From positions 1-64,000 of the forward strand of contig CAJHZI010000438.1 in the NCBI GenBank assembly GCA_905160935.1: 64,000 nt of DNA, read 5' to 3'. Positions within the stretch are counted from its first letter, which is position 1, and every line of letters starts with the position of its first letter. A program made the translations under genes and the position numbers. The notes under the pieces were generated by a model, which saw only the letters and a list, made by a program, of their open reading frames with translations, was not told the origin of the DNA and searched no databases. Source of the DNA: Enchytraeus crypticus (taxonomy: Eukaryota > Annelida > Clitellata > Enchytraeida > Enchytraeidae). Shown in pieces: positions 6,001-53,900 of this stretch.

Positions 6001-9000
6001 TACAAAACCAAACATATCAGCAGTTATCTAATCAAACAAAGTCACTAAATCATTCACACAGTAATTTTTCCATGCCGCATCAGTTGCAGCCGCAGCAACA
6101 ACAGCTGCAACAGCAACAGAAACAACAACAACAACAGCAGCAGAATCAACAGCTGCAGCAACAGTTGCATCAGCAGCTGCAGCAGCAGCAACAACAACAT
6201 CAGCAACAACAGCAACAACAATCACTTCAGCAACAAAAACAGTTGCAGCAGCAACAACAACAGCTGCAGCAGCAACAGCTACTGCAACAACAAAAACAGC
6301 TGCAGCAGCAGCCTGACTACACAAAAACTGGTCAACAAACGAGACAATCGCTGGGTCAACAACAGTTGCCATCTACATCTGATTACCCACAGCCCTCAAA
6401 TCATCTTCAACAACATCAGTACCAGCTTCAGCAACAACAACAACAACAGCAGAATCCACAGCTACAGCAGCAGTTGCATCAAAATCAGCTGTTGCCATCT
6501 CAGCAGCAGCTGTCACAAAATTTACAACAACAGCAACAGTCTGCTAACACCATCACCGCGTCCGTCACCAGTCAGGCCCTGCCGATGTACTGTAACAAAC
6601 CAGTCGACGCTTTTCAAAGATTTCAACCTGTACAGTCGTCGAGTGTACGTAACACTGGACAGTTGAATCATATTCCTAGCCTATCCTGCTCGGTCAGCGG
6701 GAGTTCTGATGCTTCAAAGGCATCTAACCTTATTCGTGGAGCAAATCCCAATTCTGAATCAGTTAATCCCATCCCAGGATTAAACAATTATACAACGCAT
6801 AATAGTGGGGCAACTTTTAACCATGGGCTAGGTGTAAATAGTTTTCAGACCCAGGGTTTGGGTATTTTTTCTAATGGTTCTAGTTATAACAGCCGACCTA
6901 TCGTAGCCAATCCCTCTTTAAGTAATAACTCAGCGGGTGGAAATATGCATTTAATCACAGGCGGTTTTCCTACAAATACCAAATCAGGGTTTAGTCAACC
7001 GTTTATTCAAAATTCTGCTGCACATAGAAATCAGAACGAATCCTTTTCCAGTTCTTTTGTTGAAAATCATTATGGCTCGCGCACACCTAATTTCCTTGAG
7101 AGTAGATCTACGAGGTATGAAACGAGCGACTTTGGGGAAGGATTTGGAAGTCGACTGCGTTCTAGTAAGAGTACGCCGGATATAGCCGCAGCGTTGCAGG
7201 AGGAAAGCCAGCGGCAGCTTGACTCCAGGTATGATACGGCAGTTTTCACTCTGTTTTCTTCTAGTGTATCTTTTGTTAGTTTTTTAATTTGATTAATATA
7301 AGGATTTTTAAAAAGAAATGTTTTTTACAGTCTATTTGTATCCCGACCCGGTTAAACTAGGATTCAAGGGAAGACGATGATGATGATGAATGTAAGAATA
7401 TTCTTAGTGTATATGTATTTATGTAGTAATACTGACATGTACGGTCCATACTTGGAATATGGTATTTGTATCATTTTGACAAATATGTGCTTTTACAAAC
7501 GTTAAGCTGCCTTACGAATGAAGCTGTTACCTGGATTAATGCATGCGTTAAGTAAATGCAAACATATATAATATCGTTATTAAAAAATGTGTTTATATAT
7601 ATATCTTTGAACTTATTTTCTAAATATTGGATTTACACCATTTTAGACCCTTGTTTGCTCTTTGGCTTGACTATAAGTATATAGTGCTCGATGTTACCAT
7701 TGATGATGGTAGCACTCTAATTATTGTTGTTGTTGTTATTGATAATTATTGTTGATGTTGGTCCTATTCTATCTCTTTTTGCTCAAGTTGACTCTTGAGA
7801 ATGTCTGATAATCGCTTTCATTAGGACAATTAATGCATTGGCACTTAATTATGTTGATGAAAAGCTCTGAAAAATGTTGACCTACTCTCGGCTTCATATT
7901 TTGAATTTTTAATGCGTAAGTACTTTACTAGTGAAGCATTCTGCTTGAAGTTCATTTTGACTATATATAAAATGAGTGGAACAGTCGAATGAGTAAGATT
8001 TTTTAGAATATTAAATTTAAATCAAAGTAGTTCTTGACATTGCCTTTGATTTATAAATTACTTGTAAAATTCTCTGCGTATTGTATAGCTTTGCACTTTT
8101 CCGGTTTCTTTAATAAATTTTGGTTTCCATTTTCACATTTACTAAATAAATGAACAAATAATTTGTAATTAATTAATAATTAATTACTATTTTAATAAAG
8201 TTTTGCTTCTATTTTCCAGTTCTCGATCAGTTGGTGGTGCTGTTGGAACCAAAGGTCTTCGGGGAGCCATAGTGTATACACCGCCCCCAAACCTTGGCAA
8301 ATCTGCGCCTCGTGGTCACGATCTTCGCCCCCAGAACTTAGAAAAATTTAGTTCAAAGGCTGCTGCAATGCTGCCAGATACTGCAGAGAAAAAGCTGATA
8401 GGTTCTCTTGTGGAGATGGGGTTTTCGCCTGTTTACTCGTCTATAGCTGTGCAAGAACTGGGCTGTGATGAGAGATTGGTTAGTGAAATCTGTTATCTAT
8501 AGTGCACGCTGAGGTAAATAGAAATGTAAGGCAAGATTTGCAAGGTTTATTAGCTTAGATAGCAATGAAATCCTAGACATGCTTGTGGAGTTGTGGATAA
8601 GCTGTGACTGAAGCGAGGAATAGAAAAGCTGGTAAAAAGTGATGTAATTAAAAAGCTAAAAAAAAGCTAATGTTAACATCAGTTTCCTCACTCGAAAGCG
8701 ATGTCAGTGACGGGCGAGCCCAGGGTTTGAACCCCGCACGTACTGATTCGCGGTCGGATGTCTTACCAACATCGCCACTGGTTTCAGCAATTATTGACAG
8801 ATCAGTTGTAAGACAGTATAATATGCAAGCGTGAGAGGGAGAGGTAGAGTGCGAGAGAGGGTGTGACCCTTTTCCGTTTACTGCTCAAGCAGCATAACGG
8901 GTAAGTATGTGCCTGGTAACATGAGTAATACGACTATATAATATGTGTAGGTACTAGATAACATGCGTAATATGTTTTTATGTGTACGTACTAGATCACA

Positions 9001-50905: not shown

Positions 50906-53900
50906 CTACCTAACTTGTCTGTGTCCGGGGATAGCCCCTCTCATCCCCCCGCCGTTATTACTACTCGCCCCCTGGGCGACCCCTATTGGTGGGGTTGAGC
51001 GCGCTTCACTGCCCCCCGTGGAATTAGAAAACGGTCCACCGGATAAAAACCCGGGCTCAGCGGGACGGGTTCTTCTCGGGTCGTTGTTAAAAGATGATGA
51101 TGATCTCTGGTTGAGATGAGGAGGAGGAATACCTCCCTGCTGAACTATCAGCTGTGGTCCCGTTACACCTGAAATATCAACAATAGCAACTAAATATAGA
51201 ACTCTCTCATCTATCAGCTGTGGTCCCATTAAACCTGAAATATCAATAGTATCAATAAAACACAGAACTCTATCTCTTATGTTATTACATGTATTTTATA
51301 CATAAACAAACACACACACACACAGAAACACACTTGATAATACACGGTACACTTGTGCTAGAGTACAAAAGTAACAAGGCCTGCATAACTGTATATGTTT
51401 ATAACTGAGATATTAAAAAGAAATAAGCATAGAAACGAAAGTAAACAAACACACACCCATGTTTCTATTAGCCTGAGGCCTCCCACTAGAGTTAGTCATG
51501 GCAACTTGACTGAAGGCGGAGCCTGTACCTCCTAGTGAGTCATTCAAGCCAGGTGGAGGAGCTTGTACAGACTGAGAGAGCGGAGCCGAAGAGACGGGCT
51601 GCAGTGATTGGTCAATAGGACTCCGCCTCTGTGTATTGTGCTTCTGCTCATCCTGTTATATAATTATAATTATAGTTAGTCGAAAATTATCGACTAATTA
51701 ACTTTTAAATGCATTATTATTAATTATCATATTAAATGTATTGGCTTTAATCTGACATAAATATATTAGTTTAGTAGAAAATCACCTAAACATAACATAG
51801 AATCTATCCAAAGTTCCAGTCCAACGAATGTGACGTTTCAATAGAACGGAAGCAAAACAATAAACCATATGCCAATACTAATATGAACCTATATGTCTGC
51901 TACTCACAGTTCAAATTTCTCATCAGAAATGCTATAAAAATTTAATTAAAATAAAATATTATAATTTAAATTTAATTTAAATAAAATATTACAATTTAAA
52001 TTTAATTTAAATAAAATATTATAATTTAAATTTAATTTAAATAAAATATTATAATTTAATTTAATTTAAATAAAATATTATAATTTAAATAAAAATTGAA
52101 ATTTAATTTAAAATTTAATTTAATAATTAAAATTCATTATTCAAATTTAGAAATAGAAACTGCTGCCTATAAAGTGGCTTAACCAGATCTACAAAAAATT
52201 TATACACAACACAACGACAGCAAAACCATACAAGTGTCGACAGGATGATGAGAGACTAGGACTAGGTTTCTAGAAGTTCCCGTAGCCTAGCACCAGACTA
52301 GAAACTTTCCTCTCAGACCATTTACATCAGTTCAAATAAATATCGGCAGAGTTCTGGTAAAAAGTTCGCCAACTCTTTTGATGAGCTACTTTACAGGCTA
52401 AATAGAAAGTTCTGAGATCTGATGGGTTATTCTATAGGCTAAATAGAAAGTTCTAAGACCTGACGTCTTTTTCACAAGCTAAATAGAAAGGTCTCAGATC
52501 TGATGGGCAATTCTATAGGCTAAATAGAAAGTTAATGTCTGATGGGCTATTATATAGGCTAAATAGAAAGTCACAAGATCTGACAGTATATATCAGTTCA
52601 ATGCTCTGACGGTCTAATTCATAGGCTAAATAGAAATGTTAAAAATTTAATGGGTTATTCCATAGGCTAAATGGAAAGTTCTAGGACCGTCTAATTGAAG
52701 CGAGTTAAAGTAGAAATCTTTAAAATAGAAAAACGTATTATAGCTTAAAACGTACAGGTTTTGTAGTGGCTTCAACTGGGATTTCACTCATATTAGGCAG
52801 CTCACTAAAGACCATGCAGAATCTAAAACATAACATATATAACATAGTACAGTCATCAGCCATGACATCCGGCATACCACAGAGTAACAAACATTAAAGA
52901 CCTTATCATACTAATGCAACGTGCGAAGATTGGATGACGAGATACGTTACAGTCAAGCTTAGCGTAAATATTTTTGACCTAAAAACAGTTAAGTTTTCTG
53001 AATTAGAACTTAAGAAAGTAATTTTATTATAAAATTAGCAGAATGTTAGACCCGTTGAACTGCAACCATTTCAATATAATATATAAATAACTAAAGACAA
53101 AATTAAGGTAAAACATTTAACAGTATGAATTCACACAACCACTTAAATACATAGAGAACTCAATAGAAGAAAAAAGTAAAGCATTTACAGTATGTTATTC
53201 ACTCAACCATTTAAACACATAGTCAATTTAATAGCAGAATAAAGTAAAACATTTACAGTATGAATTCACACAATCACTTAAAACATAGAGAATTCAATAG
53301 CAGAATAAAGTAAAACATTTGTTGAGCATTGAATACTAACTCTCCAATCTTGTTAATGTCTCCTGCTCTAGAGAGATACAGAGTGAGACAGTTCTTGAAC
53401 AAAGAAGCATACCTGGGCATAACGAGACAAAAATGCACATCTAGTTCATCTTATATATGAATAAAATTCTGCATGACATACCCAATACATGAAATGCGCA
53501 TTATAAAAACAAACTAATTTAGAAATAAAATTAAAGCGGCCTATGAACAGAAGATACCTGTTGCTCTCAGTAGTCGTCTTCTCAACACTTAGCTATTATA
53601 GTGCATAAATCTCTTTTATTAATATATATAATAAATATTTGAATTATTAACAATTACATTACATTATTATAATTATTTATTACAACTATTTTACTTTATT
53701 CTATTTATCTTGTAATTACTGACCATTAATGTTATCAGAATAGTAACAATAATAATAATTACAATTATTGCTATTATTATTTTTATTACACATTATCAAC
53801 ACAACAGCAGACTGCGATTGACTTAATATTTCTAGTGAGTACAACAAGCAAGCTATTGATTATGACAATATTTATAAGACTAACGCTTTAGTAATTCTAC

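Follow-up and report, generated by a model that had tools for sequence, protein, structure and literature searches.

Minisatellite-like tandem repeats that run across exon–intron boundaries, at both 5′ and 3′ splice sites, were given the name "mirages" in amphioxus (PMC3087553). Their length and somatic instability are further features, as is a boundary copy that escapes homogenisation. The repeat units measure tens of base pairs (bp) and more, and AG or GT is found in many, though not all, of the copies (PMC3087553; PMC3902484); the genes carrying them are Adh3, the globins BflGb6 and BflGb9 and, from the second paper, TnC and PGBD5. The mirages of the globins and Adh3 were reported not to disturb splicing, and an intron-gain model of the tandem-duplication sort was proposed for the globins in a text that also names the Rogers model of AGGT duplication (PMC3087553). 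An intronic minisatellite has been described in an earthworm gene (PMC12783039). Here we describe a 64,000-nucleotide stretch of Enchytraeus crypticus DNA (contig CAJHZI010000438.1, positions 1 to 64,000; hereafter the window), in which exon edges of SKI2, of NABP/SOSS-B and of a gene which we take to be UBAP1, a name drawn partly from a preliminary description of this DNA, are copied into the adjoining introns.

These exon-edge copies are mirages, a known kind of element; the pile-up of tandem-array ends beside them, just inside the splice sites, is stronger and is unexplained. The preliminary description had known of no account of such duplication as a recurrent pattern, a statement overtaken by the amphioxus mirages already in print. 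A limited search of open papers, by title and start of abstract, found neither a genome-wide mirage survey nor a report of array ends at splice sites. The handful of amphioxus mirages can now be set beside a measured background rate, and the striking exon-crossing arrays form a minor part of a sharper pattern, that of repeat blocks ending at splice sites. This pattern offers a concrete test of intron growth and of how spliceosomes ignore nearby decoys.

Exon Edges Copied into Adjoining Introns

Gene models were built from homology to solved structures (PDB) and Pfam, followed by GT-AG and frame consistency, and comprise 38 introns with 76 junctions, all within the window. The outer 30 bp of each exon was compared with its own adjacent intron (up to 2 kb), with a cut-off score of at least 26. 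By this measure repeats span the exon–intron boundary at 9 of the 76 junctions, as against 0 of 1613 interior exon 30-mers taken as a control. Both 5′ and 3′ boundaries are duplicated, at seven acceptors (25936, 32071, 24214, 51168, 9237, 46261 and 30380) and two donors (31841 and 30096), besides a weak donor at 38361, and the exonic base at the junction is included in all nine matches. Between 1 and 22 copies are present per site, with a mean identity to the true junction of 0.68-0.95 in copy-by-copy alignments at 11 sites. The observation of exon-edge copies is thereby confirmed. Junction 35180 (score 22), which resembles a dispersed-repeat match, was left out of the count.

The nine junctions listed in the preliminary description agree to the base with the gene models, and seven of them are solid. 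At the UBAP1 intron 2 acceptor 9237 (8933..9256, plus strand), a 37-bp unit with about 22 bp of exon 3 occurs in eight upstream copies, AG being intact in seven; all other sites are on the minus strand. The SKI2 acceptors of intron 21 (24214; 24192..24684) and intron 15 (32071; 32030..32420) are likewise repeated, the former in 17 copies of a 27-bp unit that takes in 22 bp of exon 22 (AG intact in 15) and the latter in four copies of an 86-bp unit that takes in 42 bp of exon 16 (AG intact in three). SKI2 intron 16 is affected at both ends: its donor 31841 (31310..31841) heads ten copies of a 49-bp unit with 20 bp of exon 16, of which only the nearest keeps GT and the other nine read AT, and its acceptor 30380 (30380..30600) is repeated twice with AG intact, once 55 bp away, where the copy is largely intronic, and once 210 bp away, where about 24 bp of exon 17 is included. 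Single extra copies with AG intact are found 64 bp from the SKI2 intron 19 acceptor 25936 (25907..26026; 30 bp of exon 20) and 66 bp upstream of the NABP intron 4 acceptor 51168 (51145..51271; 24 bp of exon).

The remaining two listed sites are less secure. The SKI2 intron 9 donor 38361 has one copy 57 bp into the intron (38294..38318) with 15 bp of exon and GT intact, a weak match (P 0.026), and the 44/52-bp unit at the intron 22 acceptor 22541 (22537..23603), although present in 22 copies, contains only about 5 bp of exon and keeps AG in four. In the latter array the 16 copies nearest the true site have all lost AG, and the four live copies lie 775-915 bp off. Two further SKI2 sites had been missed, namely the intron 17 donor 30096 (29923..30108), with four copies of a 41-bp unit that include about 14-16 bp of exon 17 and GT in each, and the intron 2 acceptor 46261, where 30 bp of exon 3 recurs in a single diverged copy, with AG lost, 163 bp upstream (46395..46424).

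An intact AG or GT is kept by 39 of the 71 copies at the 11 sites, that is, by many but not all, in keeping with the earlier view that exon edges and their splice sites were duplicated into existing introns as ladders of decoys. Scored with a matrix built from the 38 introns, 10 of these 39 decoys equal or exceed the true site. Splicing at nearly every decoy would break the reading frame or run into a stop. Three copies stand apart: the NABP copy (66 bp, in frame and open), which if spliced would add 22 residues in frame, the single copy at 38361 (57 bp, in frame and open) and the nearest copy at 24214 (28 bp, frame-shifted, open as far as checked). Judged from the predicted reading frame, which is open across the 24 SKI2 exons, use of the outermost sites would fit.

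The direction of copying, from exon to intron, is shown for SKI2. This minus-strand gene encodes 1250 amino acids plus a stop in 24 exons, with no internal stops, and in a preliminary concatenation of 1083 residues, positions 112-1083 align to residues 279-1246 of human SKI2. Several of the duplicated exon edges encode residues conserved in human SKI2, as in the exons beginning ILFATETFA and GKPAKLES, and the exon is therefore the source and the intron copies are derived. Among six arrays examined, the copies at 24214 are nearer to the boundary copy (0.80) than to one another (0.73), those at 31841 are homogenised (0.94 among copies versus 0.78 to the boundary), and in the other four the two identities are about equal.

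Background Rate of Duplication

Tandem arrays, detected with Tandem Repeats Finder at a score of at least 50, make up 10722 of 34749 intron bases (31%) in the window. The preliminary description had proposed that exon-crossing repeats are born specially at junctions, and that array–junction overlap be compared with shuffled intron positions. Arrays were accordingly re-placed at random within introns, with exon intrusion allowed up to one unit (maximum 45 bp) and overlap counted from at least 5 bp. Exon overlap was not enriched in the window, with 7 junctions versus 5.3 expected (P 0.24), nor was it for arrays of period at least 7 (7 versus 4.75, P 0.16), for stronger arrays (7 versus 4.62, P 0.14) or for SKI2 alone (5 versus 3.7, P 0.28). 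Of random intron points (3000 per side), 25% had their 30-bp edge copied nearby in anchored form, so that exon edges, duplicated in 12%, are copied more rarely than intron sequence (P 0.0037 overall). By side, the comparison with intron points gave 7 of 38 acceptors (P 0.23) and 2 of 38 donors (P 0.0016): exon-crossing duplication is indistinguishable from the intron rate at acceptors and is suppressed at donors. The proposed special birth at junctions is supported by neither comparison.

External DNA comprised 200 kb downstream on the window's own contig (C345) and eight 10-kb pieces from eight other contigs, in which exons were predicted by a small model trained on the window; at a score of 28, 39 of 40 training candidates overlap true exons, 28 of them with both edges exact. 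With repeat-masked predictions, exon-edge copies were found at 3 of the 88 acceptors predicted and at none of the 88 donors; the pattern thus recurs beyond the window, at a low rate. Multi-copy examples occur on another contig (locus L024) and on C345 at 192 kb. One of the three matches, at 82444, is 20 bp long and does not reach into the exon in a longer ungapped comparison, but is still counted here. Random points near the external exons had copies in 15-20% of cases in the 200 kb and in 12% in the other pieces, and the interior exon control in the 200 kb gave 6 of 3212. Pooling of the window with the external data revealed a modest asymmetry, with 10 of 126 acceptors and 2 of 126 donors (P 0.034). 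Exon overlap outside the window, again with masked predictions, showed a deficit for all arrays (4 versus 10.5 expected, P 0.019) and no difference at period at least 7 (4 versus 5.1, P 0.42).

Array Ends Just Inside the Splice Sites

Both in the window and outside it, arrays tend to have their near ends 0-10 bp inside introns, in a four- to tenfold excess that varies with the null chosen. Taking the density beyond 200 bp as the null, 10 ends were counted versus 0.87 expected in the window and 20 versus 2.44 outside, with 6 versus 0.53 and 10 versus 1.39, respectively, at period at least 7, and 11 versus 0.99 at external exons scoring at least 40. Re-placement within introns of the window gave 10 versus 2.24, a count reached in none of 3000 shuffles, and 6 versus 1.39 at period at least 7 (P 0.0013). 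Even against the density at 31-100 bp, the external DNA yielded 19 versus 4.9 (P 1e-6), or 10 versus 3.1 at period at least 7 (P 0.0015).

With masked predictions, external arrays overlapping a junction or ending within 10 bp of it numbered 26 versus 14 expected; masked predictions avoid masked bases, and the array-end test was therefore repeated without the mask. At the 194 junctions of these unmasked predictions, ends per junction-base amounted to 0.0069 at 0-5 bp and 0.0113 at 6-10 bp, falling to 0.0018-0.0029 at 31-100 bp and 0.0011-0.0012 beyond 200 bp. On the exon side (−45 to −5), six array ends correspond to 0.00075 per bp, as against 0.0011 deep in introns. The gene models of the window were built without a repeat mask, so masking cannot explain the pile-up there. 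The earlier interpretation is partly supported and survives in a refined form, in which array ends rather than exon-crossing arrays mark the splice sites.

Three SKI2 donors illustrate the pattern, all on the minus strand: a 24-bp array of 33 copies (39027..39815) begins 3 bp inside intron 8 (donor 39819), a 17/20/40-bp array (32445..32658) begins at the first base of intron 15 (donor 32659), both with no exon copy, and a 30-bp array of 24 copies (44040..44757) begins 7 bp inside intron 4 (donor 44765). At the intron 5 donor of the BEACH-type gene described below, a direct repeat about 220 bp apart (61762 and 61983), the first copy of which starts from the first intron base, likewise contains no exon copy. 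At donor 36206 the exon residue is borderline (7 of 15, P 0.053).

Apparent Orientation of (GATT)n and (AATC)n Arrays

Aside from the longer units, tetranucleotide arrays lie close to several splice sites. Sense-strand (GATT)n ends 2 bp from the SKI2 acceptor 25209 (25212..25268, minus strand) and 4 bp from the acceptor 37274 (37279..37531, minus strand), and sense-strand (AATC)n begins 2 bp inside intron 1 of an ankyrin gene (donor 16470; 16473..16801, plus strand). In the last 60 bp before acceptors, a two-unit GATT in the sense orientation was present in 29 of 135 and AATC in 2, compared with 3 and 10 near donors (P 6e-6); random intron windows contained them in 6.4% and 3.0%, respectively. 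In the window alone the orientation test gave P 0.021, and within 400 bp the bias is gone (P 0.23). The external result leans on predicted acceptors, and the prediction model favours T-rich sequence; in the strictest set, 45 external exons scoring at least 40, the counts were 12 versus 1 at acceptors and 1 versus 1 at donors, which is not significant (P 0.26). The (GATT)n arrays therefore look oriented near acceptors, though less surely than the array ends are placed.

Two related ideas were abandoned. Pairing of a donor (AATC)n with an acceptor (GATT)n in one intron was seen in 2 of 13 versus 24 of 92 within 150 bp (P 0.51), and a role of arrays as a general supply of pyrimidines was rejected as acceptor, donor and mid-intron arrays are alike in the window. 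The excess of T over A is higher near acceptors than in mid-intron (P 0.005), but is equal near donors. A pattern count gave 23 acceptors with sense AATC upstream genome-wide; for the pair in 344 kb the count is 1 versus 0, and no comparison was drawn. At the SKI2 exon 3 donor (46144), a dispersed repeat that carries an (AATC)n tail starts some 6 bp into the intron, and sequence that resembles it by eye lies near 33781 and 50806 (uncounted); some of the (AATC)n arrays may have arisen from repeats of this type.

Origin of the Arrays

The best explanation, to which we assign a probability of about two in three, is that the mirages arose when tandem duplications of the ordinary, minisatellite-forming sort fell by chance across an exon–intron boundary, and that arrays are halted at splice sites by selection. 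In a genome with a heavy load of intronic arrays, where intronic tandem duplication would be very active, a duplication crossing a junction would leave the outermost copy as the real, conserved and working site, and the inner copies, now intronic, would diverge and expand. Arrays would form or lengthen until they met the splice site and were stopped by purifying selection, which acts on the exon and the splice signal; their ends would thus gather within 10 bp or so of the junction. Arrays that span an exon edge would then represent tolerated overshoots, commoner at acceptors than at donors. We infer both this outward spread against a selective barrier and the normal use of the outermost site.

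Several points weigh against this explanation. Exon residue was found in none of the five abutting arrays examined (39819, 32659, 29103, 16470 and 37274), which thus offer no direct evidence of a barrier. The pile-up is also sharper than a passive model need give, and splice sites could attract array birth; short ancestral introns with little free DNA may be another cause of it. Moreover, the window is richer in exon-edge copies than its surroundings (9 of 76 versus 3 of 176 junctions, P 0.0014), either because genes differ in their rates or because the window was selected for its copies, and the external exons come from the window-trained model and not from homology modelling. The same five arrays told against a separate idea, that abutting arrays are decayed mirages, and it was rejected.

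A broader proposal is that splice sites serve genome-wide as edges or anchors for tandem-array growth, with (GATT)n mostly oriented to offer a branch-point-like TTGAT, with intron growth through arrays that are founded or stopped at the splice signal, and with mirages as the exon-crossing fraction; we put it forward tentatively, as possible but on balance doubtful. Tandem duplication might instead be founded preferentially at splice junctions, as the preliminary description held, for instance where transcription leads to breaks or where splice signals provide short homologies. This view would account for the four- to tenfold excess of array ends 0-10 bp from the splice site on the intron side, both within and beyond the window, and for the junction base in all nine exon-edge matches. 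It is nonetheless unlikely, as exon overlap is not enriched (7 versus 5.3), duplication affects exon edges less often than random intron points, with donors at 2 of 38, the five abutting arrays lack exon residue, and exon-side array ends are no commoner than those deep in introns.

A functional role of the ladders, whose decoy acceptors and donors would tune alternative or recursive splicing, could draw on the 39 intact dinucleotides, 10 of which score at least as high as the true site, on the 22 in-frame residues offered by the NABP copy and on the orientation of (GATT)n at acceptors (29 versus 2 of 135). We regard it as very improbable, given that the splice dinucleotide is lost from 9 of the 10 copies at 31841 and from 18 of the 22 at 22541, that nearly all decoys give a frame shift or a stop, and that the globin and Adh3 mirages were reported without interference in splicing. 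Recursive splicing in particular was dropped: the junction reads AG·GT or AG·GGT at 5 of 7 duplicated acceptors versus 6 of 31 others in the window (P 0.014), but the excess is lost when external exons are pooled (P 0.12; AG·GT alone, 4 of 10 versus 25 of 116, P 0.24). Creation of these introns by tandem duplication of AGGT-containing exon sequence is suggested by AG·GT within several units and by the similar model for amphioxus globins, yet donor and acceptor contexts are no more alike within an intron (9.18 of 30 identities) than across introns (9.04), and in none of the 38 introns do they copy each other at 16 of 30 or more. Old gains would have lost this signature, a caveat on the context test; even so, we consider such an origin scarcely credible. 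An origin of introns from tandem arrays is reportedly the subject of Zhuo et al. 2007. Tandem repeats are difficult to assemble, but the copies differ from one another and from the junction (mean identity 0.68-0.95), and a collapsed-assembly artefact is therefore unlikely, as the preliminary description had held. With the empty interior exon control in the window and the multi-copy units that recur on another contig and on C345, artefact or chance resemblance can be almost entirely discounted.

Genes and Other Features of the Window

The window is animal-like DNA and lies on contig C345 of a 524,188,772-base assembly in 802 contigs. GC content over 344 kb of window and external DNA is 0.354; that of Branchiostoma is about 0.41. 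Besides SKI2, the modelled genes are NABP/SOSS-B, with five exons (E 2e-36) and its first exon not found; UBAP1, with three exons and a UBA match under the Pfam cut-off; the ankyrin gene, with four exons; and a BEACH-type gene, with seven exons within the window. The window part of the last has no Pfam match, and the label derives from predicted same-strand exons further along that give a Beach domain (E 1.5e-62) and are probably linked to those in the window. Downstream of the UBAP1 stop, about 45 bp past a 42-bp array, a predicted exon at 10399-10478, the coding stretch of which looks UBA-like by eye, may be a further or alternative UBAP1 exon.

On contig C345 at about 190 kb, a predicted exon bears a motif suggestive of a Tc1/mariner-type transposase. 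A COX1 of mitochondrial type with 12 in-frame TGA lies on contig C802, and COX1-like fragments with stops on contigs C361, C424, C796, C373 and C166 are perhaps nuclear copies of mitochondrial DNA. An Rfam search of the window and eight loci gave no matches at gathering scores, and exact scans of viral and prokaryote contigs for a repeat from this genome likewise returned none.

Comparison with Known Systems

Recursive splicing sites, as generally understood, resemble the present arrays in that a donor might in principle be regenerated from some units, those reading AG·GT. They differ in that the six donors regenerated here score 0.6-4.4, whereas the mean for true donors is 7.3 and the lowest of them scores 1.7, and in that AG·GT is not enriched in the pooled data. 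The Rogers model of AGGT-based intron gain shares with them the duplication of sequence bearing a splice site; here, however, existing introns are enlarged, and the host introns lack the signature of gain.

The closest likeness is to the amphioxus mirages, since here also tandem repeats of similar unit length lie at 5′ and 3′ boundaries with AG or GT partly retained. The present copies are accompanied by a measured background and by the array-end pile-up, neither of which appears in the available portions of the mirage texts. They differ further from the amphioxus examples in that several loci fall within one gene, SKI2.

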